In this document: positions 3,052 to 26,485 of the stretch, in pieces
How the letters are laid out: each line of letters begins with the position of its first letter
Position numbering within the stretch: position 1 is the stretch's first letter
IMG/VR virus record: IMGVR_UViG_3300037104_000734
Location: 1-30,277 of that record
Length of the DNA: 30,277 bases
Source of the DNA: a virus
Reading direction: 5' to 3' (one strand)
Position numbers and translations under genes: made by a program
The notes under the pieces: model-generated
The model's database searches: none
What the model saw: the letters and a program-made list of their open reading frames with translations, nothing else
What the model was told of the DNA's origin: nothing

Positions 3052-3999
3052 TTACGCTAATGTGGCTTTAAGGTTGATAATCCACAAATCGTTACAGATT
3101 CTTGGGACTTCAGCGAACTTATAACCGACGCTAGCATTAAGAGCTAATGGACCATCGTATATTGGTGGGCGATAGATAAAGCTTGCGCTATAACCATCTT
3201 GCTCAATACAGGCATAAGCTTCCATACCAACACAGAAAATGTTATACACATCTGCGCCATTAACAGAAGATTGTGGGCTTACTGAACCAATCGATGATAC
3301 CAAGAATCTTAAGTTTCCAATTGAACCCCATTCAGATCGAAGGGCATTCATTGGTGATGGGTATTGGTTCTTATGAATGAAACCAGCAACCGCATCAAGA
3401 TTACCTGTCATTTGGGTAGAAGTAAGTGCAAAGTACGCATCACGAACTGGTGCTGTACCGAACTTATCTTCACCTTCAATGTTATCCAAAATGGTGTAAG
3501 CATTGTTATTTAACAATGTTCTAACCACTTCATCAACGTCTGCTCGAGTGATTTCTGTTGGGGAATCACCATTTGCACCAGCCGTACAATTAATCGTTGA
3601 TGCTGTAGAAGCAAGCATATCACGAGTCAATTGATCTTCTGTTTGACGAAGTGAAACACCAAGACGAGCCGCGCATTCGTTGAGCACGGGATCTTGAGAT
3701 TGTAACGTCACCTGTTCATTGATCTGGACGTAGGTTCCGTAAAATGATATTGTAGCATCGATGTCTACGGCGGTCAATAGCTGAGGTGGAGGAGTTACGC
3801 CGCTATTTCCAAGTGGTACCATTGCGGTAGCCAATGGATTGTATCGACGCATACGCAACGTACGACCACCATTCCTAGGCATTGCTTTATGCATTGCTGG
3901 AATCTTATGGATCATATTTGGTACTGGAACCGACAGGAGCTTATAACTAAAGCTCTGTTGCACTGGCGATGGAAGTACCGATGTAGTTGTAATAGGCAT
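3052..3999 (-). CDS. Major capsid protein, N4-gp56 type
   Basis: 315 aa from ATG 3997-3999 (MPITTTSV); an in-frame ATG 33 bases upstream lacks a ribosome binding site, while AAGGA precedes the chosen one. The middle part has the order typical of the N4-gp56 family of HK97-fold capsid proteins: a basic RTLRMRRYNPL segment, then VTPPPQLLTAVDIDATISFYGTYVQINEQV, shown here only in its key pieces RRYNPL, VTPPPQLL and DIDATISFYGTYV, and a C-terminal domain ending in an NDLWIINLKATLA strand. Length fits the family. It follows scaffold-like and portal genes and has its own promoter and an unusual leader (4000-4182). It should form the icosahedral shell. Confidence 0.88.
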   Translation of the reverse strand: MPITTTSVLPSPVQQSFSYKLLSVPVPNMIHKIPAMHKAMPRNGGRTLRMRRYNPLATAMVPLGNSGVTPPPQLLTAVDIDATISFYGTYVQINEQVTLQSQDPVLNECAARLGVSLRQTEDQLTRDMLASTASTINCTAGANGDSPTEITRADVDEVVRTLLNNNAYTILDNIEGEDKFGTAPVRDAYFALTSTQMTGNLDAVAGFIHKNQYPSPMNALRSEWGSIGNLRFLVSSIGSVSPQSSVNGADVYNIFCVGMEAYACIEQDGYSASFIYRPPIYDGPLALNASVGYKFAEVPRICNDLWIINLKATLA

Positions 4000-4062
4000 A
4001 GAATTCCTTAGTGTTAAAAATAACTTCAACAACTAAGTTGACGAGGCTTAGAATTAACGTCT

Positions 4063-4160
4063 GGGGCCTGCGAGTTCCCCGTACACCCGAGGGTGGTAAC
4101 GCTGTGGCCTGCGAGTTCCACGTAACGCGATTTTTGAGGCCTGCGAACTCCTCGTAACGC
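4063..4160 (-). promoter_or_regulatory. Triple hairpin repeat in the capsid gene leader
   Basis: Three repeats lie between the promoter and the capsid gene. On the plus strand they are 4063-4080, 4104-4121 and 4136-4153. Each is a 4-bp stem around a 10-nt loop: GGGG/CCCC, GTGG/CCAC and GAGG/CCTC, around CCTGCGAGTT (twice) and CCTGCGAACT. The second stem pair changes G-C, T-A, A-T with pairing kept each time, while loops stay nearly constant. A 7-mer GTAACGC (4096-4102, 4122-4128, 4154-4160) accompanies the units. In the transcript this is a row of three similar hairpins in the 5' untranslated region. Between the first two is a further small hairpin. Function unknown; protein or RNA binding is likely. 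Confidence 0.7.
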
Positions 4161-4167
4161 TAATACT

Positions 4168-4173
4168 ATTATA
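4168..4173 (-). promoter_or_regulatory. Probable -10 box of a capsid gene promoter
   Basis: A perfect TATAAT reads on the minus strand directly downstream of the terminator at 4183-4218. The -35 position falls in the T-rich tract of the terminator stem end and has no clear TTGACA, so this would be an unusual or factor-dependent promoter. It would produce a transcript with a leader of about 160 bases containing the three hairpins. Confidence 0.5.
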
Positions 4174-4182
4174 CACTTTTTT

Positions 4183-4218
4183 AAAAAAATAGGGCCGCGG
4201 TAGTTCAAATCGCGGCCC
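4183..4218 (-). terminator. Strong rho-independent terminator before the capsid gene
   Basis: Arms 4211-4218 and 4192-4199 form an 8-bp all-GC stem (GGGCCGCG with CGCGGCCC) with an 11-nt loop; on the minus strand it is followed by TA and seven T (4189-4183). It ends transcription of the upstream genes (110-aa gene and others) just before the capsid promoter. The stretch 4000-4264 thus holds no gene but a terminator, a -10 box and the hairpin leader. Confidence 0.85.
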
Positions 4219-10602: not shown

Positions 10603-10619
10603 TTCTCTCCTATCTTATA

Positions 10620-10693
10620 TAGCCCTAGGGGGAGTCGAACCCACCATTGATCACTTGAAAAGCGATTATCCTTGCCAGTTAGATGATAGGGCC
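10620..10693 (-). tRNA. tRNA-Glu (anticodon TTC)
   Basis: Reads on the minus strand with a seven-base acceptor GGCCCTA pairing with TAGGGCT (first pair G-U), positions 8-9 TC, a D arm ATC...GAT containing TGG, an anticodon stem ATCGC/GTGAT around TTTTCAA with anticodon TTC, and a T arm with loop TTCGACT. One T-stem mismatch is present. The 3' CCA is not encoded. Glu identity comes from the anticodon. It is co-oriented with the late genes. It may supplement host decoding of GAA/GAG. Confidence 0.8.
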
Positions 10694-10717
10694 ATGTCCT
10701 ATCTATATTATTTCGGG

Positions 10718-11949: not shown

Positions 11950-11959
11950 TGGCTTATTT
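11941..11959. repeat. 19-nt direct repeat, copy 1 (flanks HNH gene)
   Basis: GGCTGTCAATGGCTTATTT occurs here and again, identical, at 12844-12862. Copy 1 covers the stop codon of the HNH gene; copy 2 begins at the stop codon of the large terminase gene. The segment between (about 0.9 kb) is the HNH gene plus its leader. This looks like the footprint of an insertion after the terminase gene. Confidence 0.75.
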
Positions 11960-12712
11960 AATTAAATATGGGTTTCTTGTTTTTAACATTGATACAATTG
12001 CACATTTTTTACTACAGGTTTTTTTAAGGGCATATTTATTGCAAAAGAATAAAGTTGTGCATACACAACAAGCTCTATATATGAAATCTTTTCTATAAAT
12101 AACTCTGTTTTTCGTTTTACAAGCATTAGAACAGAATAATTGATGAGCAACTTCTCCAAAGAATTCTTTCGAACAACATTTACATATTTTTTTATATTTT
12201 TTCCCGGTACATGCCGGTAATGATTTTTGGGCATGATTTCTATGCCATTCCCTACCTTCTTCACTTCTATGCCATTCAGTAGCCTTTGCATTAAGGCTTC
12301 TCAGGACTTGTTTACATCTTTCTGATTGAGCCCAACTTTCAGGTCTAAGCATGTGTTCCGATTGATGTTGCGATCCAAGAACACAACGCAAATTAGAGAT
12401 ATGATTATTTCTTCTGTTCCCATCAACATGATGTACGTGATGTTTTTCTGGAATTGGCCCATTATAAAACATCCAAACATATCTATGTAAAGTTGAACAA
12501 GGATTGAGTGGGGTTCGGGCAGAAACATAGTAAAAATTATTCCACCTAAAAAAATAACCATTAAAAATTGCTTGAACTCCATCTTCAGATAAAAGAAATT
12601 CTTCTGTAATCCTTTTAAACTTAACGCCCTTGATTACTATATATATTTCTTTTTCAGTGATTTCATTAGCAATTTGATTTGTTTCCCGAAGCTTGATATC
12701 TTCTGGATTCAT
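11954..12712 (-). CDS. HNH endonuclease with two C-terminal zinc fingers
   Basis: 252 aa, ATG with AAAGGA upstream. The core LHRYVWMFYNGPIPEKHHVH continues HVDGNRRNNHISNLR (residues about 75-109), the HNH motif of phage homing endonucleases with His-94/His-95, Asp-97/Asn-99 and Asn-103/His-104. The C-terminal half has two treble-clef-like fingers: C177-x2-C180-x13-C194-x3-C198 and C215-x2-C218-x14-C233-x3-C237, likely for DNA site binding. It is a free-standing gene between terminase and the XRE unit, flanked by a 19-nt direct repeat, and AT-richer than its neighbours, so it is probably a mobile homing gene. Confidence 0.82.
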   Translation of the reverse strand: MNPEDIKLRETNQIANEITEKEIYIVIKGVKFKRITEEFLLSEDGVQAIFNGYFFRWNNFYYVSARTPLNPCSTLHRYVWMFYNGPIPEKHHVHHVDGNRRNNHISNLRCVLGSQHQSEHMLRPESWAQSERCKQVLRSLNAKATEWHRSEEGREWHRNHAQKSLPACTGKKYKKICKCCSKEFFGEVAHQLFCSNACKTKNRVIYRKDFIYRACCVCTTLFFCNKYALKKTCSKKCAIVSMLKTRNPYLIK

Positions 12713-17553: not shown

Positions 17554-17784
17554 ATGTTTGGTTTTTCTAGAGCTAGACATAAAATTAAAAATCCAGAGGA
17601 AATAGCCGAAGAGCGGTTGCTCAATGATTTAAAGGCTTCTCTTGGTGACGAGCAACCAATGATAACCGTTCTTAAGAATCGATTAAGAATTATCGATCTT
17701 GAAGATAAAGTCATTAAACTTGAAAGATATGTTAAAAGATTAGCCAGTGGCCATAAAAACATTATTCCAAAAAAGGGAAAATAA
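17554..17784 (+). CDS. Small coiled-coil protein before ERF
   Basis: 76 aa, ATG with AAGGAG seven bases upstream; its stop overlaps the ERF start (TAATG). Basic and helical: NPEEIAEERLLNDLKASLGD and LRIIDLEDKVIKLERYVKRL, with a basic tail. Close coupling to ERF suggests a recombination accessory, but there is no recognised domain. Confidence 0.5.
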   Translation: MFGFSRARHKIKNPEEIAEERLLNDLKASLGDEQPMITVLKNRLRIIDLEDKVIKLERYVKRLASGHKNIIPKKGK

Positions 17785-18539
17785 TGGAAATCAACTTTAA
17801 AGAACAATTGGAGTTTCTCCAGGAGTTCAACAAGATCATAGATGAACGCACACAGGCAGCCCTCAAAAACGTCCCAGAAGATGCGTATGAATCCGAGTCG
17901 ACTAATGAGATAGCCACAGCATTATCTAAAGCCCAAGGGGAATTTCCACGTATAAACATCAATCAGGAAAATCCTTACTTCAAATCAGGGTTTGCGGATC
18001 TTAATAATATTATCCGGTCCATAAGACCCGCTTTGGCTAAGTATGGTTTGTGTGTTACCCAACAGACGAAGATATTGCCCGATGGCGCAACGATTCTTGT
18101 TTCAAGGGTTAGACACTCTACCGGGCAGTGGATCGAATCACGTGTTCGAATTATACCCCCTAAAAATGATATGCAGTCTTACGCCTCTACCTTGAGCTAT
18201 ATGAAACGTCATGCAGTTATGGCTTTGTTGAACGTTACTATCGACGCTGACTTTGCTGATGACGATGCTGAAATAGCCATGGTCAGCCAACGAGATACCT
18301 TTGCTAAGGGGACGGCTATAAACCGTAAATATGATCCTCGGGAACAATCACCTGATGTCATAACCAAAGAACAACTTGAAGAACTTGAATATGAACTTGC
18401 TGAGTTCCCTGATATCACTGAAATGGTTCTTGATGGCTTAAAGATACAAGCCCTTGCTGATATGCCTAAATCCAAATATATGGTAAGCATAGAGCGCGTA
18501 AGAGCTATTAAAAATGCAAGGAATGGCGTCGGCAAATAA
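17784..18539 (+). CDS. erf: ERF-family single-strand annealing recombinase
   Basis: 251 aa. Residues about 43-75 show the ERF hallmark: IATALSKAQGEFPRININQE, NPYFKSGFADLNNI, then RPALAKYGLCVTQQ. Further on are VRHSTGQWIESRVRI and SYASTLSYMKRHAVMALLNV followed by an acidic DFADDDAE, all in the family order. The C-terminal ~60 residues are a helical domain (VITKEQLEELEYELAEFPD). ERF proteins anneal complementary single strands and help circularise or recombine phage DNA; here it can work with RusA. Confidence 0.9.
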   Translation: MEINFKEQLEFLQEFNKIIDERTQAALKNVPEDAYESESTNEIATALSKAQGEFPRININQENPYFKSGFADLNNIIRSIRPALAKYGLCVTQQTKILPDGATILVSRVRHSTGQWIESRVRIIPPKNDMQSYASTLSYMKRHAVMALLNVTIDADFADDDAEIAMVSQRDTFAKGTAINRKYDPREQSPDVITKEQLEELEYELAEFPDITEMVLDGLKIQALADMPKSKYMVSIERVRAIKNARNGVGK

Positions 18540-18885: not shown

Positions 18886-19581
18886 TTATGCAACAGTGAT
18901 ATTGCCCTGAGAGCTTAACACATTAAACGCTGTATCTGCAACAGAACAAACAATTTCTATCGAATTATATGTTCCCGTCGATGTTAATGTCCCACCAACT
19001 GATGTATCTACCGCCCCAAAATGAATTGTTTGGCCCGTATTGGCCTGTATTTGCCAACCCGTTGCATTATTTATTCCCGTAACTTTAAAGACAGATCCAG
19101 CTGGCGACACTGCTGGAAGTGTAATAACTATTGTTCCAACACCATCTACGATATAACCACTATCAATTGCTGCTGGAGTATTTGCATTTATTGTCGACCA
19201 AGTGACACCACCACCACTACCACTAATCGTTATTGTATTTGGAACTGTCCCATCAGTTGTAATTCCAAGCGTTCCGTGAATTGTTACAATATTTCCTGGC
19301 GCGGGAACCACTGGTCCACCCGTATCAGTAGTAAATGAGATTATTCCACCACCAGAACTTAATTGTGTCCATGTGGCAACATTGCCTGATTTGCTGGTGA
19401 GAATAAAAACATCTGAGGTAGGGGGAACTAACCATAAAGTACCAATGGGAAAGCGAATATAATCGTTAGGAGTTGGAATTCTGTTCTCAGTTACTAATTG
19501 AGGTGGAGTAGTTGGATTAACTCCCATATAAGAAAGGGGATTTAATCCATTTAGGTCTCTGTTGATATCACTTTGGCTCAT
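18886..19581 (-). CDS. Tail-fibre-like protein with shared GWQ C-terminal module
   Basis: 231 aa; start overlaps the stop of the next fibre gene by four bases (ATGA). Residues about 1-75 are unique, with PNDYIRFPIGTLWLVPPTSD. The last ~100 residues are the module shared with the genes at 25073, 26506, 27133 and 28453: GYIV...ITLPA, F-K-V-T, GWQIQANTGQTIHFG, GGTLTST, IEIVC, and a final SSQGNITVA. Low charge, Thr/Gly/Ser-rich, beta structure. It is the last gene of the operon. Role as a short fibre or receptor-binding tip is inferred. Confidence 0.65.
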   Translation of the reverse strand: MSQSDINRDLNGLNPLSYMGVNPTTPPQLVTENRIPTPNDYIRFPIGTLWLVPPTSDVFILTSKSGNVATWTQLSSGGGIISFTTDTGGPVVPAPGNIVTIHGTLGITTDGTVPNTITISGSGGGVTWSTINANTPAAIDSGYIVDGVGTIVITLPAVSPAGSVFKVTGINNATGWQIQANTGQTIHFGAVDTSVGGTLTSTGTYNSIEIVCSVADTAFNVLSSQGNITVA

Positions 19582-20969
19582 GATAACCCTTTCTCGGCTA
19601 ATTGCGCTTCAAGAATCTTCATTTCTGCACTCAACTTTTGAAATTCATTTAATAACATTGCTGGAAGTAAGTGATAATGTACAGTGAATGGTTTCCCATC
19701 TTTATCATAAGATACAAGTTCTGGGTATATCTGCCCTACTTCTTCTGCAATCAATCCGTATTGGGCATTTTTGTCGCTGTCTGACTTATAATTAAAAGTC
19801 ACGGGGCGAAGGTCGATAAGTTTAGAACTGTCGTCAGCCATATCTTGGATATTTTCTTTGTAGCGGGCCGAGGAGACAAGAACTCCAAGTTGATCTGATG
19901 CGCTTACATAAACAGCTGAGCCACTAACCGATTTTCCATAAATACCGGCAATATAAGCTGAATTTAATTGACCGTCTCCAGTGCCTGTCCCAGCTCCAAT
20001 CCTGAGAGTATTTGATTCACCAGGTGTTCCACCAACATTATATCCAATACAAATATTTGAGCCTTCACTTCCAGTATAATTATATCCTGACAAGGCCCCT
20101 AAACAACTATTAAAAGATCCGCTTATTATTTGGGCCAAGGACTGATATCCATAAGAACAATTTCCTTTAGAAGTCGTTAATGACATAGATGATTGAAAGC
20201 CACATGCACAATTTTGAGAACCTGAGGTACAACTTTCAAGTACCTGAGATCCTATGCCAACGTTGCCATTTGATTGTCCACTTATAGCACCAGTTAGACT
20301 TGAAAGTGCTTGATATCCTATACCTATATTCTGATTAACATTAGCTCCAGCGCTAGGATTTCCAGCAAGAGATCCCAAGAAAATGTTTTCTGAATCCAAT
20401 GATCCTTGATGCCAAACATTTAAAAAAGAATCACCGCCTATAGTAATTATAGGTGATGCTGGATTTGCCGGATAAGTAAATGCAAAACTCTGCGCTGAAA
20501 ATGCTCCAGTTATTGTAACAGTTCCGCTAAATATTGGACTTCCAGTCCACGATGGGTTCGCTCCAGTATTTCCCATCAAACATGATCCAGTTGGGCCAAC
20601 AACACTTAATGATTGAATTCCTCCACCTGAAGCTCCAACTTCAACGGCATATTGTGTTTGTCCGGTGATAGGTCCACCACCACTATTTACAACCCATGTT
20701 GGATCTGATCCAGCACCATTTGTTTGAAGTACATAAGTAGATGTTCCAGCAGCTAAAAATTTAGGTGATGCTGCCGTACCTACAAGAATGGTTCCAGCCG
20801 CCCCAGTATCAACTTCTCCTAAAATACCCGCATTGCTGATAGTGATTATGCCACTTGCCGGCGTTGAGGAAAGAGGAGTCAGAGTTATTGATCCAGTACT
20901 TACAGTAAGTCCTCCAGAAGTTACTGTAAACGGAGCACTTGCATTATCTAATGCATTATTTGTTGCCAT
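19578..20969 (-). CDS. Tail fibre with S74 intramolecular chaperone, fibre 1
   Basis: 463 aa. Residues 1-100: common N-terminal module of this array (GGLTVSTGSITLTPL ... SPKFLAAGTSTYVLQTNG). Residues about 190-330: YadA-head-like repeats with G-x-x-A/S-L steps (NIGIGYQAL, NVGIGSQVL, NICIGYNVGG) for a trimeric beta-roll. Residues about 366-463: Peptidase_S74 domain; Ser-366 and Lys-371 in SSARYKENI form the self-cleavage dyad, followed by LRPVTFNYK, QYGLIAEEV and a coiled coil that drives trimerisation and is cut off after folding. Start with GAGG upstream, overlapping the previous gene stop. Confidence 0.85.
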   Translation of the reverse strand: MATNNALDNASAPFTVTSGGLTVSTGSITLTPLSSTPASGIITISNAGILGEVDTGAAGTILVGTAASPKFLAAGTSTYVLQTNGAGSDPTWVVNSGGGPITGQTQYAVEVGASGGGIQSLSVVGPTGSCLMGNTGANPSWTGSPIFSGTVTITGAFSAQSFAFTYPANPASPIITIGGDSFLNVWHQGSLDSENIFLGSLAGNPSAGANVNQNIGIGYQALSSLTGAISGQSNGNVGIGSQVLESCTSGSQNCACGFQSSMSLTTSKGNCSYGYQSLAQIISGSFNSCLGALSGYNYTGSEGSNICIGYNVGGTPGESNTLRIGAGTGTGDGQLNSAYIAGIYGKSVSGSAVYVSASDQLGVLVSSARYKENIQDMADDSSKLIDLRPVTFNYKSDSDKNAQYGLIAEEVGQIYPELVSYDKDGKPFTVHYHLLPAMLLNEFQKLSAEMKILEAQLAEKGLS

Positions 20970-22360
20970 TATATTTCCTCAAGTTTTAATTTAATATACT
21001 CTTTCCGTTTAATAAGCTTCTGAAGTTCATTTAGTAAGATAGATGGCAATTTTTCATAATAAACACTGAATGGAGTGCCATCTTTGTCATAAGATACGAG
21101 ATCTGGAAATAATTTAGCAACTTCTTCGGCTATAAGACCATATTGCTTGGTTTTATGAGTATCTTTTTTGTAGGTAAATGAGACCGGTCTGAGATCCATT
21201 ATTTTATGACTATATTCATTCATATCTTCGATATTTTCCTTGAAACGAATCGAAGAAGATGTTGCCCCAAATTGATCCGAAGAACTTACACTCAGTGCAT
21301 TGCCTATTACCGATGTTGTTTGGATGCCAGAAATATATGCTTTGTTTAAATATTGTGCTGATGATCCAGTTGCTTGTCCAATGCGTAATCTATTATTTGC
21401 CATATAAGGAGCGGATCCATAAACAGTGGCACCATTTATTGAAATAAAATTATTATAATTAGATGTATTTCCAACAGCGGATTGAAATCCGAATGCTGTA
21501 TTGTTTGAACCATCACCATCACTCATCGAAGAATGTCCAAAAGCACTTCCATAATTTGAATACTGATTTTGTCCTGAAGAAGATACTCCCCATGCTGTCA
21601 ATCCAGTGCCATTAATAATCCCGGTTAAACTTAAAACTCCAACGGCAACATTAAAACATCCTTGCCCTGTGCTAGCGCCAACTAAATACCTCATTGATTC
21701 AACACCAATTGCCACATTATCAGTTGCATTAGCTGTATTTAAAATAAATGTTCCAGATGGTCCGGCAGAACCTACATATTCTCCCATAAAGGTATTATTG
21801 GTACCATAAGCTTGAATAAATGCTGTAGCACTCGAAAGAGCACCATAATACCACTGAAATACACCAATTTTTGAAGATGTTGTTAAGGGCAAAGCCAAAC
21901 TCCCAACAATTAGACCATTAGCGGTAATCGTTCCTGAAAACGAAGGGCTTCCCGTAAAAAATGGATTTGCTGATGTATTTCCCATTAATATTTGATTATT
22001 ACTTCCTAATGGAATCGAAGTAATTCCACCAGTAGAAGCTCCAACAACAACAGAATATTGCGTTAATCCTAATCCAGGGGGCATCCATTGTGGATCGAAC
22101 CCAGCGCCTTGAGAAGTAAGTACGTCACCAGGAGTGCCAGCTGCCAGAAATTTAGGGGACGTTAAGGTCCCCACAAACACTGTCCCCGATCCACCAGTTT
22201 CTACTTCTGATAGAACGCCACTACTATTAATAGTTACGATGCCAGTAGCGGCAGTTGATGCAATTGGCGTCAATGTTGTGCTACCAGCAGAAACCTTTAA
22301 CCCATTGTTAACGGTGAAGCCATTGGAGGAAAAATCATCGATAGCATTATTAGTTGCCAT
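20969..22360 (-). CDS. Tail fibre with S74 intramolecular chaperone, fibre 2
   Basis: 463 aa with the same build as fibre 1: N-terminal module (VNNGLKVSAGSTTLTPIAST, SPKFLAAGTPGDVLTSQG), a distinct central region (residues about 150-330, Asn/Gly/Ser-rich, with NVAIGVESM and NVAVGVLSL repeats), then S74 with SSIRFKENI (Ser-369, Lys-374), LRPVSFTYK, QYGLIAEEV and a Lys-rich terminal helix. The centre differs most from the other fibres, as expected if it carries receptor specificity. Stop and start codons overlap on both sides. Confidence 0.84.
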   Translation of the reverse strand: MATNNAIDDFSSNGFTVNNGLKVSAGSTTLTPIASTAATGIVTINSSGVLSEVETGGSGTVFVGTLTSPKFLAAGTPGDVLTSQGAGFDPQWMPPGLGLTQYSVVVGASTGGITSIPLGSNNQILMGNTSANPFFTGSPSFSGTITANGLIVGSLALPLTTSSKIGVFQWYYGALSSATAFIQAYGTNNTFMGEYVGSAGPSGTFILNTANATDNVAIGVESMRYLVGASTGQGCFNVAVGVLSLTGIINGTGLTAWGVSSSGQNQYSNYGSAFGHSSMSDGDGSNNTAFGFQSAVGNTSNYNNFISINGATVYGSAPYMANNRLRIGQATGSSAQYLNKAYISGIQTTSVIGNALSVSSSDQFGATSSSIRFKENIEDMNEYSHKIMDLRPVSFTYKKDTHKTKQYGLIAEEVAKLFPDLVSYDKDGTPFSVYYEKLPSILLNELQKLIKRKEYIKLKLEEI

Positions 22361-23712
22361 TAGTTCTCCTGCGATTCAAGTTCTTCTATTCTTCTACGAA
22401 GTTTTTGAATCTCATTCAATAACATCGCTGGAAGAACATGGTAGTAAACCGTAAACGGTTTGCCTTCTTTATCATACGCTATTAATTCGGGATATATTTC
22501 AGCCACTTCTTCTGCAATAAGACCATATTGCATGTTTTTGTCTTCGTCAGACTTATAATTGAAAGCAACGGGCCTAAGATTATGAAGATTATCGCTATCA
22601 TCGCCCATCTCACGAATATTTTCTTTAAATCTTCTCGATGAGACGGCAACGCCAAGTTGATCTGAAGAACTTACCAAAACTGCTGATCCAGTAACGGTTA
22701 TTGTCTGTATACCAGAAATATATGCTGCATTTATTTGTCCTGATCCAGTTCCTGTTCCTGCGCCTATTCTAAGCACATTGCTTTCGCCGATTGTTCCACC
22801 AACATTATATCCGATGCATATATTTCCTGTTTCGCTTCCGGTATAATTACCCCCCGATAATGCACCTAGAGCTATATTATATGAACCTGAAACTAGTTGA
22901 TAGAGGCTATTATATCCACATGCCGTGTTATATCCAGTGGTCGTTACTGCAGCCAAGGCTCCTGATCCACATGCCGTGTTTCTTGTTCCCGAAGTACAAG
23001 CGGCAAGCGATCCCGCTCCTACGCCAGTGCAATTATTAGTGGACGCTGCAGAACTCAAAACATTGTATCCAATTCCCGTATTGAAAGCAGAAGTCATGGT
23101 AAGATTACCAGCATTTATGCCGACGAAAGTATTACCAGAAGTAGATCCTCCATATGCATGCATAAATAAAGATCCACCAAGCGTAATTTGACCTATAGTT
23201 GCCGTTGTAGCAGGTAGAGATAAATTACCAGAAGTAACCGTTAAATTACCAGAACCAACAGTAACCGACCCGCTAAATGATGGACTTCCAGTCCATGATG
23301 GATTTGCTCCAGTATTGCCCATAAGTGTAGTATTAGAAGCACCTACCAATAATGAAGCTATACTTCCGCCAGAGCCTCCCACTTCAACTGCATATTGGGT
23401 TTGTCCAGAAATAGCGCCGCCGCCAGCATTTACCACCCATGTAGGATCTGCGCTTGCACCATTTGTTTGTAATACATATCCAGAAGTTCCAGCTGCTAAA
23501 AATTTAGGCGAAGTTGCAGTACCAACAAATACTGTGCCTGCAGCGCCTGTTCCTACTTCTGCAAGAATTCCTGCATTGCTTACTGTTACTACTCCAGTTG
23601 CTGCTGAAGATGCAATAGGAGTTAATGTTGTAGATCCAGTGCTTACCGTAAGTCCTCCTGTAGTAACAGTAAAAGGAGCACTCGCATTATTTAAAACATT
23701 ATTCGTAGCCAT
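22360..23712 (-). CDS. Tail fibre with S74 intramolecular chaperone, fibre 3
   Basis: 450 aa. N-terminal module nearly equal to fibre 1 (TGGLTVSTGSTTLTPIASSA, SPKFLAAGTSGYVLQTNG). Centre has regular beta-roll repeats (NTGIGYNVL, NTACGSGAL, NTACGYNSL, NIALGALSG, NICIGYNVGG) and shares the final repeats with fibre 1. S74 domain: SSRRFKENI (Ser-358, Lys-363), LRPVAFNYK, QYGLIAEEV, ending in a charged helix RRRIEELESQEN. Fibres 1 and 3 look like the most recent duplicates of the four. Confidence 0.85.
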   Translation of the reverse strand: MATNNVLNNASAPFTVTTGGLTVSTGSTTLTPIASSAATGVVTVSNAGILAEVGTGAAGTVFVGTATSPKFLAAGTSGYVLQTNGASADPTWVVNAGGGAISGQTQYAVEVGGSGGSIASLLVGASNTTLMGNTGANPSWTGSPSFSGSVTVGSGNLTVTSGNLSLPATTATIGQITLGGSLFMHAYGGSTSGNTFVGINAGNLTMTSAFNTGIGYNVLSSAASTNNCTGVGAGSLAACTSGTRNTACGSGALAAVTTTGYNTACGYNSLYQLVSGSYNIALGALSGGNYTGSETGNICIGYNVGGTIGESNVLRIGAGTGTGSGQINAAYISGIQTITVTGSAVLVSSSDQLGVAVSSRRFKENIREMGDDSDNLHNLRPVAFNYKSDEDKNMQYGLIAEEVAEIYPELIAYDKEGKPFTVYYHVLPAMLLNEIQKLRRRIEELESQEN

Positions 23713-25061
23713 TATCTACCCCTTTTAAATTCTAAAGCATCTGTTCTTTTATTAAGTTGCTGAATTTCCTGTAATAAAATAACCGGTAATTTATCATAAT
23801 GAACGCTAAATGAACTACCATCACTTGCATAACAAATAAGTTCTGGATATATCTCAGCAACTTCCTCTGCTATAAGCCCATATTGTTGGTGTTGTGATTC
23901 ATCTTGTTTATATGTAAAAGATACCGGCCTAAGTTGCATTATCTTATCATTATTACCGCTTAAATTTTGGATGTTTTCTTTAAATTTTTCTGAAGATGAT
24001 GCAACGCCAAGTTGATCAGATGTACTTACTTTAACTGCAGTTCCTGTTATTCCAATGGTTTGAATCCCAGATATATAAGTAGCATTTATTTGTCCAGGAG
24101 AGCCATTTCCAGTTGTATCACCTATAAAAAGTAAATTTGGATTATGATTACTAGGAGATCCTATATATTCACCTGCAAAAATAAATATTGAACTCGTAGA
24201 ATTATAAGCAGTACTGCTTCTCTCACCAAAACTAGTTGAATATGGATAGGAGCCACCAGCAAGATATCCAACAGCGGTACCATATGCACCAACACCAGCA
24301 ATTGAAGCGCCTTCGCCAAATACAGTCCAATGACTTACTCCGCCAGAAAAACCTGAAGCTGCCCCCACTCCAATACATGTAATATTACTATCAGAAGTAG
24401 AAGCAGTGGAGCCTGAAGAATATCCAACAAAAATACAATTAGTTATGGTAGCTGTGTTAACCGTTCCTGTATTACCAGCCTGATCACCTAAATTAAGATT
24501 TGATACTCCATATGCATATGCAAACGGATAAGTCGTATCAGAAGTTACGCCTTTTATCCAACCAACGCTTGCTGTTGTAGAAGGCAATGCTAAATTTCCT
24601 GAAGTTATAGTAATATTTCCAGAGCTAGCGGTTAAAGTTCCCGAATAGGATGGGCTTCCCGTAACCGATGGATTTGCGCCAGTATTGCCCATAAGACATT
24701 GGCCAGTAGTTCCGGCTGGAAGACTTGTTATGCTTCCAGAAGAAGAACCAACAACCACTGCATATTGAGTTAATCCATAACCACTCAACCATTGTGGGTC
24801 AAATCCAGAACCTTGAGATACCAGTCTTGCTCCTGATGTTCCAACAGCGAGAAATTTTGGAGAAGTTGATGATCCAATAAATACTGTTCCTTGAACCCCT
24901 GTTTCAACATGGGATAATACTCCAGAAGAATTTATAGTTACTACTCCAGTCGCCGCTGTTGATTCAATAGGCGTTAATGTTGTGTTACCAGAAGTTACCG
25001 TTAAGCCTCCGGTAACTGTCAGGCTTGGAGCCGCATCATTGATAACATTATTTGTAGCCAT
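23712..25061 (-). CDS. Tail fibre with S74 intramolecular chaperone, fibre 4
   Basis: 449 aa. N-terminal module GGLTVTSGNTTLTPIESTAA and SPKFLAVGTSGARLVSQG; central region has different beta repeats (LNLGDQAGN, CIFVGYSSGS, CIGVGAASGF, GTAVGYLAGG). S74: SSEKFKENI (Ser-356, Lys-361), LRPVSFTYK, QYGLIAEEV and HYDKLPVILLQEIQQLN. The terminal helix is short and basic. First of the four S74 genes in transcription order; start 11 bases after the stop of the 455-aa gene. Confidence 0.84.
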   Translation of the reverse strand: MATNNVINDAAPSLTVTGGLTVTSGNTTLTPIESTAATGVVTINSSGVLSHVETGVQGTVFIGSSTSPKFLAVGTSGARLVSQGSGFDPQWLSGYGLTQYAVVVGSSSGSITSLPAGTTGQCLMGNTGANPSVTGSPSYSGTLTASSGNITITSGNLALPSTTASVGWIKGVTSDTTYPFAYAYGVSNLNLGDQAGNTGTVNTATITNCIFVGYSSGSTASTSDSNITCIGVGAASGFSGGVSHWTVFGEGASIAGVGAYGTAVGYLAGGSYPYSTSFGERSSTAYNSTSSIFIFAGEYIGSPSNHNPNLLFIGDTTGNGSPGQINATYISGIQTIGITGTAVKVSTSDQLGVASSSEKFKENIQNLSGNNDKIMQLRPVSFTYKQDESQHQQYGLIAEEVAEIYPELICYASDGSSFSVHYDKLPVILLQEIQQLNKRTDALEFKRGR

Positions 25062-25072
25062 GATCGAGCTCC

Positions 25073-26440
25073 TTAAGCGACAGTTATATTTCCAACACCA
25101 GAAATTACATTATAAGTCGTATTAGCCACAATACAGACAATCTCAACTGAATCACGTATCGCAGTAGATGTGAGAGTTCCACCAGATGTTGTATTTTGTG
25201 TCCCAAAATAAATAGTCTGGCCTGTATTTGCTTTAACTTGCCAACCAGTAGCAGTATTCATGCCGGTAAACTTAAATACTGACCCAACAGCAACAGTTGC
25301 CGGCAAATTATAAACAAGTGTTCCGGCATAGTTAGCTATATATCCTGTATTTATAGCAGCTGTAATAGGCGTCGTTGTATTAGGAGTTGAAGACCATGCA
25401 AATCCTCCACCACCTCCACCCGCCGCCCAAATAGGAACTACACCTGCTCCTTGAGCAGTAAGTACATAGCCAGAGGTTCCGCCTGCTGTTGCAACAACAC
25501 CAACCTGATTAGTTCCAGTACCAATAACCACATCACCGGTTGCTATAGTCGCTGGATAAGTAGCAGTCGTCCATGCCGGATCTGCTGAAGTGTTCGCTTG
25601 GAATATTTGTCCTGTTGTACCACCAGTTAGAAACTTAGGTGACGTAGAAGTGCCAACAAATACCGTTCCGGCGGCTCCAGTTTCGACTTCAGCAAGCACG
25701 CCAGCGGAAGATATAGTCACCACGCCAGTAGCTGCTGTACTCTTAATAGGAGTCAATGTCGTTGATCCAGCAGTTACTGTTAGGCCACCTGCTGTTACTG
25801 TAACACCACCCGCAGTTGCCGTTAAACCGTTTGAAACAGTAGTAGTTCCACCAAATGTAGGAGAACTTGGGATAGATATAGTTAAGGTAGCGCCAGAAGC
25901 TACTGTTGTAATTTGGTTGGTTGTACCTGCTATAGTTACCGTAGTTCCAGTAGCTGTTCCGGTTCCTCCAGCAAGAGTTGTAATTCCAGTTGCAGAAGCA
26001 GCTCCCCATATAGGAACTACACCTGCTCCTTGAGCAGTAAGTACATAGCCAGAGGTTCCGCCTGCTGTTGCAACAACACCAACCTGATTAGTTCCCGTAC
26101 CAATAACAACGTCGCCCGTAGCAATCGTTGCCGGATAAGTAGCCGTCGTCCAACCAGGATCGGACGAAGTAGTTGCTCTAAATAATTGTCCCGTTGTTCC
26201 CCCCGCAAGAAACTTAGGTGAAGTAGAAGTACCGACGAATACGGTTCCGGCGGCGCCTGTTTCTACTTTAGCTAAAACTCCAGAAGAATTAACCGTTACT
26301 ACGCCAGTGGCTGCTGTTGATTTAATCGGAGTCAATGTGGTGTTACCGGCTGTAACGGTTAAACCGCCGGCAGTGACCGTTAAAAGATTTTCGACAGTAA
26401 AAGTTCTACTATCGTTATTTAATGAATTAACTTTAGCCAT
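25073..26440 (-). CDS. Tail-fibre-like protein with internal duplication and GWQ C-terminal module
   Basis: 455 aa from ATG 26438-26440 (GGGGAA upstream); a GTG six codons earlier is possible but has no site. The N-terminal S74-fibre module (LTVTAG, TTLTPIKSTAATGVV, VFVGTSTSPKFL) is followed by TATYPATIATGDVVIGTGTN and GVVATAGGTSGYVLTAQGAG; the whole block of ~115 residues is then repeated (about residues 30-150 and 220-340). The C-terminus is the GWQ module (GWQVKANTGQTIYFG, GGTLTST, final GVGNITVA) rather than S74. It is thus a hybrid of the two fibre types present. Confidence 0.72.
   Translation of the reverse strand: MAKVNSLNNDSRTFTVENLLTVTAGGLTVTAGNTTLTPIKSTAATGVVTVNSSGVLAKVETGAAGTVFVGTSTSPKFLAGGTTGQLFRATTSSDPGWTTATYPATIATGDVVIGTGTNQVGVVATAGGTSGYVLTAQGAGVVPIWGAASATGITTLAGGTGTATGTTVTIAGTTNQITTVASGATLTISIPSSPTFGGTTTVSNGLTATAGGVTVTAGGLTVTAGSTTLTPIKSTAATGVVTISSAGVLAEVETGAAGTVFVGTSTSPKFLTGGTTGQIFQANTSADPAWTTATYPATIATGDVVIGTGTNQVGVVATAGGTSGYVLTAQGAGVVPIWAAGGGGGGFAWSSTPNTTTPITAAINTGYIANYAGTLVYNLPATVAVGSVFKFTGMNTATGWQVKANTGQTIYFGTQNTTSGGTLTSTAIRDSVEIVCIVANTTYNVISGVGNITVA
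25431..25516. repeat. 86-nt exact repeat inside the 455-aa fibre gene, copy 1
   Basis: Identical by eye to 26010-26095, 579 bases apart, in the same orientation and frame. It encodes the GVVATAGGTSGYVLTAQGAG segment. Sequence around it differs at third positions, so the identity points to a recent duplication or gene conversion. Confidence 0.8.
26010..26095. repeat. 86-nt exact repeat inside the 455-aa fibre gene, copy 2
   Basis: Second copy of 25431-25516. The flanking protein-level duplication is longer (about 115 residues) but diverged at nucleotide level. Confidence 0.8.
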
Positions 26441-26457
26441 TCTTTCCCCTAGCAACA

Positions 26458-26485
26458 CAAGGAGGCCTAATTACAAGCCTCCTTG
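26458..26485 (-). promoter_or_regulatory. Intergenic hairpin between fibre genes
   Basis: CAAGGAGGC (26458-26466) pairs with GCCTCCTTG (26477-26485) around a 10-nt loop. No T-run follows on either strand, so it is not a normal terminator. One arm contains AAGGAGG, a perfect Shine-Dalgarno match not placed before any start codon. Possibly an mRNA stabiliser between the 202-aa and 455-aa genes. Confidence 0.4.

Follow-up and report, generated by a model that had tools for sequence, protein, structure and literature searches.

The leaders of ompA and papA carry 5'-terminal stem-loop stabilisers, and tandem pseudoknots are contained in the 3' regions of plant viruses and flaviviruses (the upstream domain of TMV and pairs of xrRNAs). 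In the mRNA leader of T4 gene 32, a 5'-terminal pseudoknot of ~28 nt upstream of the ribosome binding site serves as the operator for autogenous control (PMC535899). Type III antitoxins (ToxI, CptI and TenpI) are tandem H-type pseudoknots (PMC5086642), and phages can carry such repeats, as phage PhiTE does with its pseudo-ToxI (PMC3475682). In the timP mRNA leader, a pseudoknot and a conformation that sequesters the Shine-Dalgarno sequence have been proposed to be mutually exclusive (PMC11228461). There is precedent for pseudoknot leaders, for antitoxins built of tandem pseudoknots and for bistable leaders, and structured RNAs that control the capsid genes of tailed DNA phages have been little described. 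The array that we describe here is a new RNA family; we know of no earlier example of a capsid mRNA with pseudoknots in variable number arrayed from +1.

We analyzed a 30,277-nt stretch of viral DNA (positions 1 to 30,277 of IMG/VR record IMGVR_UViG_3300037104_000734; hereafter the window). The capsid gene and the signals ahead of it lie as follows:

3052..3999, minus strand: major capsid protein gene, 315 aa, matching PHROG 1357 (major head protein; hmmscan, 4.5e-32)
4168..4173, minus strand: -10 box TATAAT, with transcription predicted to start at ~4161
4183..4218, minus strand: intrinsic terminator of the upstream transcript, identified from the sequence, just ahead of the capsid promoter

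The match of the capsid gene to Pfam Phage_capsid_4 (6.5e-05) is under the Pfam cut-off, and a P22-type portal gene (9917-7896) is found upstream of the capsid gene in minus-strand gene order. The strong terminator at 4183-4218 and the adjoining TATAAT, which were the starting point of the original prediction, are both present on the minus strand (TATAAT at 4173-4168); the terminator (4218-4183) has arms GGGCCGCG and CGCGGCCC around an 11-nt loop, followed by T7. Elsewhere in the window, there is a tRNA-Glu (TTC) gene (10619-10694, minus strand), an HNH endonuclease gene (11954-12712) and, on the opposite strand, an ERF-family recombination gene (17784-18539). At 19578-26458, five paralogous proteins of 449-463 aa are encoded in a row, most full-length pairs being 42-63% identical; four of the five end in a Peptidase_S74 intramolecular chaperone, as in an array of tail-fibre or spike paralogues.

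Between the promoter and the capsid gene, we found all three repeats that had been predicted, with stems GAGG/CCTC (4153-4136), GTGG/CCAC (4121-4104) and GGGG/CCCC (4080-4063) on the minus strand and loops of AGTTCGCAGG, AACTCGCAGG and AACTCGCAGG, respectively. The pattern GNGGARYTCGCAGGCCNC has three mismatch-free matches in the window as compared to 0.19 expected, 0 of 100 shuffles reached three, and there are no further sites in the window at up to three mismatches. These repeats had been read as three hairpins with a nearly constant loop. The stems are real; however, each is only half of a pseudoknot, because the CGC in the loop (the 3' strand of S1) pairs with a GCG located 4 nt upstream of the stem (in unit 3, an inserted hairpin makes this distance greater). 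A fourth unit at 4061-4033 had been overlooked. The window leader is thus almost certainly, on the evidence of comparative sequence, an array of four tandem H-type pseudoknots, listed here with their segments in the order S1 5' strand, loop 1, S2 5' strand, loop 2, S1 3' strand, loop 3 and S2 3' strand:

4136..4161, minus strand: pseudoknot unit 1 (AGCG TTAC GAGG AGTT CGCA GG CCTC); S1 GCG 4160-4158 with CGC 4145-4143, S2 GAGG 4153-4150 with CCTC 4139-4136; descriptor match and covariation in relatives
4104..4129, minus strand: pseudoknot unit 2 (CGCG TTAC GTGG AACT CGCA GG CCAC); S1 GCG 4128-4126 with CGC 4113-4111, S2 GTGG 4121-4118 with CCAC 4107-4104; descriptor match
4063..4103, minus strand: pseudoknot unit 3 (AGCG TTAC, hairpin, TAC GGGG AACT CGCA GG CCCC); S1 GCG 4102-4100 with CGC 4072-4070, S2 GGGG 4080-4077 with CCCC 4066-4063; descriptor match
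4084..4095, minus strand: hairpin CACC/GGTG within loop 1 of unit 3, folding at -6.1 kcal/mol
4033..4061, minus strand: pseudoknot unit 4 (GACG TTAATT CTAAG CCT CGTC AA CTTAG); S1 GACG 4061-4058 with CGTC 4043-4040, S2 CTAAG 4051-4047 with CTTAG 4037-4033; descriptor score 21.0, the top of the four

Units are ~25 nt long, with 29 nt in unit 4 and 41 nt in unit 3 including its hairpin insert, and S1 is 3 bp in units 1-3, where only the GCG:CGC pairs form. A plain hairpin as the unit is ruled out by the pairing and covariation of the upstream strand with the loop.

We compared the leaders of related capsid genes (82-100% identity), in which arrays have 2-5 units, for example GACG TAC GGG ACT CGTC AA CCC and GACC CAATC GAG CCT GGTC CC CTC. 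A loose descriptor found 180 units as compared to 26-35 in shuffles, and a stricter descriptor found 188 units, present in 67 of 68 distinct leaders, as compared to 9-16 in shuffles. When we calculated mutual information between columns without a structure model, the top seven column pairs were exactly those of two crossing stems (0.634 to 0.170; null maximum 0.125). A second capsid clade (~60% identity) has the same arrays, and in 305 units from both clades the identical seven column pairs have the top mutual information. The outer pairs of S1, in units anchored on the constant letters only, are formed in 83% and 80% of units, as compared to 61% and 55% when the 3' halves are permuted (maximum of 2000 permutations, 69% and 64%) and 60% and 51% when each unit is given the 3' half of a sister unit in its own leader. 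Because the sister-unit control has the same ancestry, relatedness does not explain S1 pairing. We also aligned 67 units without gaps, after taking out three visibly out-of-register sequences and near-duplicates. In this alignment, 91.9% of cells pair (76.4% when shuffled and 31.6-50.1% in slid registers) and the covariation score is 0.495 as compared to 0.209, reached in 0 of 500 shuffles. The claim that the untranslated leader of the capsid gene is under selection as a folded RNA thus gains strong support from the units of relatives and their covariation; the opposite pattern, a kept loop with broken stems, which had been named as the main evidence that would count against it, is not what we found when the relatives were checked.

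Other features of the units point the same way. All loop 1 inserts of at least 16 nt in convincing units fold on themselves (10 units: unit 3 of the window and nine from relatives), one-base bulges occur in S1, and G-U pairs outnumber A-C pairs by 97 to 64, which favors the capsid-sense RNA as the folded strand. A purely DNA-level operator, with repeated protein sites in promoter-proximal DNA and no role for RNA, would fit repeats that adjoin a promoter, but it is scarcely credible and largely refuted by covariation: the two crossing stems covary base by base, and the variable loop lengths, the self-folding inserts, the S1 bulges and the excess of G-U over A-C argue against it as well. Chance repeats or a recent duplication are ruled out by the rarity of the pattern, the descriptor counts relative to shuffles and the covariation in two clades. 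A coding repeat is likewise ruled out, as the gaps between units vary (10th to 90th percentile, 1-23 nt) and keep no frame. The idea that neighboring units have different S1 stems to avoid mispairing was unsupported (0.202 observed, 0.228 expected).

To find the array independently of the capsid gene, we used three DNA-pattern searches that ignore the capsid across 2.9 million viral contigs, and found 51 stretches, 47 of which directly precede this capsid gene. The first search gave 19 stretches, 17 of them directly ahead of this capsid family (54-90% identical), and the later two gave 28 and 6 (32 distinct), with 30 of the 32 ahead of this capsid gene. Of the remaining four stretches, two are copies of a single coding sequence whose would-be stems do not pair, one is probably a chance match, and the last is on a contig that breaks off right behind three good units. 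An initial scan of the collection with GNGGARYTCGCAGGCCNC was too loose and was set aside: the 72 matches besides one relative (L140) were single matches only. In ten near-complete genomes, clusters of true units are found only at the capsid gene. Each of two scans found at least ~600 related capsid loci, nearly all of the 129 distinct leaders examined have an array, and the same array is present ahead of the capsid gene in well over 100 related uncultured phages. Two related capsid genes lack the leader array (L155, 77% identity, and L264, 84% identity); here there is almost no gap between the capsid gene and the gene before it, so that promoter and array appear to have been lost together. 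In Page, vB_Pun_Y3 and StenR_269, isolated phages whose capsids are ~25% identical, only a few to ~22 nt separate the capsid gene from the preceding annotated gene, too little to hold an array.

Several relatives have a tRNA gene upstream of the capsid gene (L019, L080 and L170). The capsid gene of this family is also interrupted in a number of loci by inserts of ~240-1220 nt at several codons (about 10-14, 97, 117, 144/145 and 181; L158, L161, L165, L167, L169, L170, L175, L177, L178, L324, L325 and L335, and also L035, L063, L067, L159, L369 and L385). Some inserts have endonuclease-like reading frames, and the array is upstream of the first exon in the loci checked; a scan of nine of the loci gave no match to Rfam group I introns.

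The array begins at the predicted 5' end of the transcript, which goes beyond the original prediction. Among relatives, TATAAT-like hexamers end 5-7 nt ahead of the first unit in 43 of 65 cases, as compared to ~3 at each of the other offsets, and in clade 2 the -10 box likewise ends 5-7 nt before the first stem. If transcription starts the usual 7 nt after the -10 box, the distance between the predicted start and the first stem is at most 2 nt in 79 of 90 leaders. S1 of the first unit is longer or more often extended than that of other units (p=0.0018). Comparative sequence establishes both stems and their crossing order, and also that they are placed just downstream of the -10 box and occur at this capsid gene only. 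The pseudoknot structure is near certain, and its function we infer.

An array that begins at the predicted +1 of a structural-gene transcript and has multiple structured units could in principle be an antitermination element, like the HK022 put sites, through which the 5' end of the nascent RNA acts on RNA polymerase. To our knowledge, however, the put layout differs from tandem pseudoknots, and in the same 65 relatives, of which 18 have terminator-like sites in the 170 nt before the array, there are none in the 170 nt after the capsid stop. This reading is very unlikely.

The array was also compared with type III systems, since it is likewise made of tandem H-type pseudoknots placed between a single promoter and a protein gene. 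A phage decoy or antitoxin RNA carried in the strongest transcript, as PhiTE pseudo-ToxI is carried against a type III toxin, would have precedent in those antitoxins (PMC5086642) and in the phages that carry such repeats (PMC3475682). In ToxIN, CptIN and TenpIN, however, an endoribonuclease toxin gene is found downstream and a terminator is intergenic; here the downstream gene encodes the major capsid protein in the window and in relatives, and the array is followed by neither a terminator nor a toxin gene and is always ahead of the capsid gene. In the window, there is no Rho-independent terminator between array and capsid gene, the terminator being located upstream of the promoter, and PADLOC found no toxin match among ten neighbors. 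ToxI repeats are almost identical, whereas both stems differ among the units of one array here, and the coupling to the capsid Shine-Dalgarno sequence in clade 1 (see below) argues for a cis role. We consider a decoy highly improbable.

In line with the earlier view that no described family has this layout, Rfam 15 at the gathering threshold gave no match beyond tRNA in the window leader or in ten relatives, a permissive scan gave only sub-threshold sRNA and terminator matches, and we found no matching layout for tandem pseudoknot arrays in phage leaders in the searchable literature. The TMV upstream domain and xrRNA pairs also place several pseudoknots in series on a viral mRNA, but at the 3' end of RNA virus genomes, with unrelated sequence and host.

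The array very probably controls the amount of capsid protein made, and we are confident, short of certainty, that it does so as a cis-acting control of the capsid mRNA. One part of the mechanism that we propose is a clamp at the 5' end. Transcription would start on the first stem, and the nascent RNA would fold at once and leave no unpaired 5' end; by promoter prediction, there are few or no unpaired 5' nucleotides, as expected of a 5'-terminal stabiliser. The ompA and papA leaders resemble the array in having pairing at the very 5' end, which is expected to block 5'-end-dependent decay, but they have one hairpin where the array has tandem pseudoknots with conserved loop letters. A paired 5' end would slow decay by enzymes that need a free 5' end (RppH and RNase E), and closely spaced units would serve as backups. 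RNase E is slowed more than tenfold when the 5' monophosphate is base-paired rather than accessible, and the RppH of B. subtilis, when purified, needs two or more unpaired nucleotides (PMC3997798). We found RNase E/G in all five Chlamydiota genomes tested, Chlamydiota being the presumed host and thus the presumed source of the decay enzymes.

The second part is a gate on the Shine-Dalgarno sequence, a competition that the original prediction had not included and that is found in part of the family. In the window, the 3' strand of the last unit can pair elsewhere:

4007..4037, minus strand: alternative hairpin CTTAGT 4037-4032 with ACTAAG 4012-4007, which buries the Shine-Dalgarno sequence AAGGA 4009-4005 and excludes S2 of unit 4

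This hairpin is predicted to fold at -14.2 kcal/mol with the last unit free and at -5.4 kcal/mol with the last unit held as a pseudoknot; in a clade 1 relative (L014), the equivalent pairing is TCTTAAGTAT with ATACTTAAGG. In clade 1, which includes the window, the last-unit strand scores 14.6 against its own Shine-Dalgarno sequence as compared to 11.07 in permuted leaders (maximum 12.1) and 9.3 for non-last units, a result that was repeated on 79 leaders. A strong anti-Shine-Dalgarno stem starts inside the S2 strand in 43 of the 79, and the S2 strand alone gives a small signal in this clade (7.90 as compared to 7.50, maximum 7.87). When the last unit is held as a pseudoknot, predicted Shine-Dalgarno accessibility goes up in 38 of 79 leaders and down in 2 of 79, with the mean rising from 0.31 to 0.49 and the window from 0.32 to 0.60. 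In contrast, there is no signal in clade 2 (10.58 own, 10.47 permuted), so that a family-wide gate is unsupported and the gate is not the universal role of the array. Thus, folding predictions suggest that the last unit is a likely translation gate in the clade of the window, as a feature of that one clade. The 3' strand of the last pseudoknot would leave the Shine-Dalgarno sequence free when it is within the pseudoknot, so that capsid is made, and would turn capsid off when it is on the Shine-Dalgarno sequence; a candidate for tipping this balance is a phage protein that reads the near-constant C-G-U-A...U-C-G core. The timP leader is alike in its pseudoknot and Shine-Dalgarno-sequestering conformations, which here are predicted for clade 1, but unlike the array it has a single pseudoknot, belongs to a type I toxin gene and is controlled by an sRNA. 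The full mechanism of clamp and gate as stated is a tentative proposal that we place a little short of an even chance.

A plain hairpin would suffice as a 5' clamp, so the conserved loop letters and the 2-5 copies call for an explanation beyond clamping. In 345 units, counted with a descriptor that itself favors these letters, the inner CG:CG is present in 328 and the U before the 3' strand of S1 in 341, and mostly UA or CA follows the 5' strand of S1. By analogy with T4 gp32, core letters and copy number make more sense if the units are also read by a protein, which is compatible with clamp and gate. The main rival takes this further and makes the array a protein-bound operator, in which a phage protein (capsid, scaffold or other) reads the pseudoknot core and cooperatively represses or activates capsid translation. 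The near-constant core and the tandem copies, which fit cooperative binding, are consistent with such an operator, and the 5'-terminal ~28-nt pseudoknot of T4 (PMC535899) offers a model, being like the array a pseudoknot upstream of the ribosome binding site in a phage mRNA leader (here in silico). T4 has one pseudoknot rather than 2-5, though, at the gene for a single-strand DNA-binding protein, and we know of no shared sequence. Since the stems vary freely, a protein would have to recognize the units by shape and a few bases, and in 17 units the inner pair is swapped to CC:GG. We regard an operator array as rather unlikely, if less so than the other rivals. A new class of multi-site RNA sensor in phages is an unlikely extension: here every pseudoknot would bind the same ligand, be it capsid, scaffold or some other factor from phage or host, cooperativity would depend on how many units there are, and occupancy would be turned into Shine-Dalgarno exposure by the last unit.

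To identify possible hosts, we looked for capsid relatives in bacterial genomes. With a threshold of E 1e-38, 8 of 234 genomes of Chlamydiota had one, as compared to 1 of 239 and 1 of 230 genomes sampled from two further phyla. One Parachlamydiaceae assembly (L158/L359) has a 98% identical capsid segment with three units; among the other Chlamydiota matches for which the capsid start could be read (one at 77% identity and three at ~40%), we found no array. The likely hosts are environmental Chlamydiota, as a lead from draft assemblies. The concentration of capsid relatives in Chlamydiota draft genomes (L155, L158, L350 and L351-L360) suggests tailed phages of environmental chlamydiae.

Taken together, these data describe an array that is widespread, has exceptionally clean covariation across two clades and is located exactly at the predicted transcription start. 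It is a small, modular RNA of variable copy number that is directly testable for mRNA decay, translation or protein sensing. If the multi-site sensor were true, the phage would count its own capsid supply via a string of RNA knots. Should the host lead hold, the array may serve as a marker for tailed phages of environmental Chlamydiota, which are hardly known so far.
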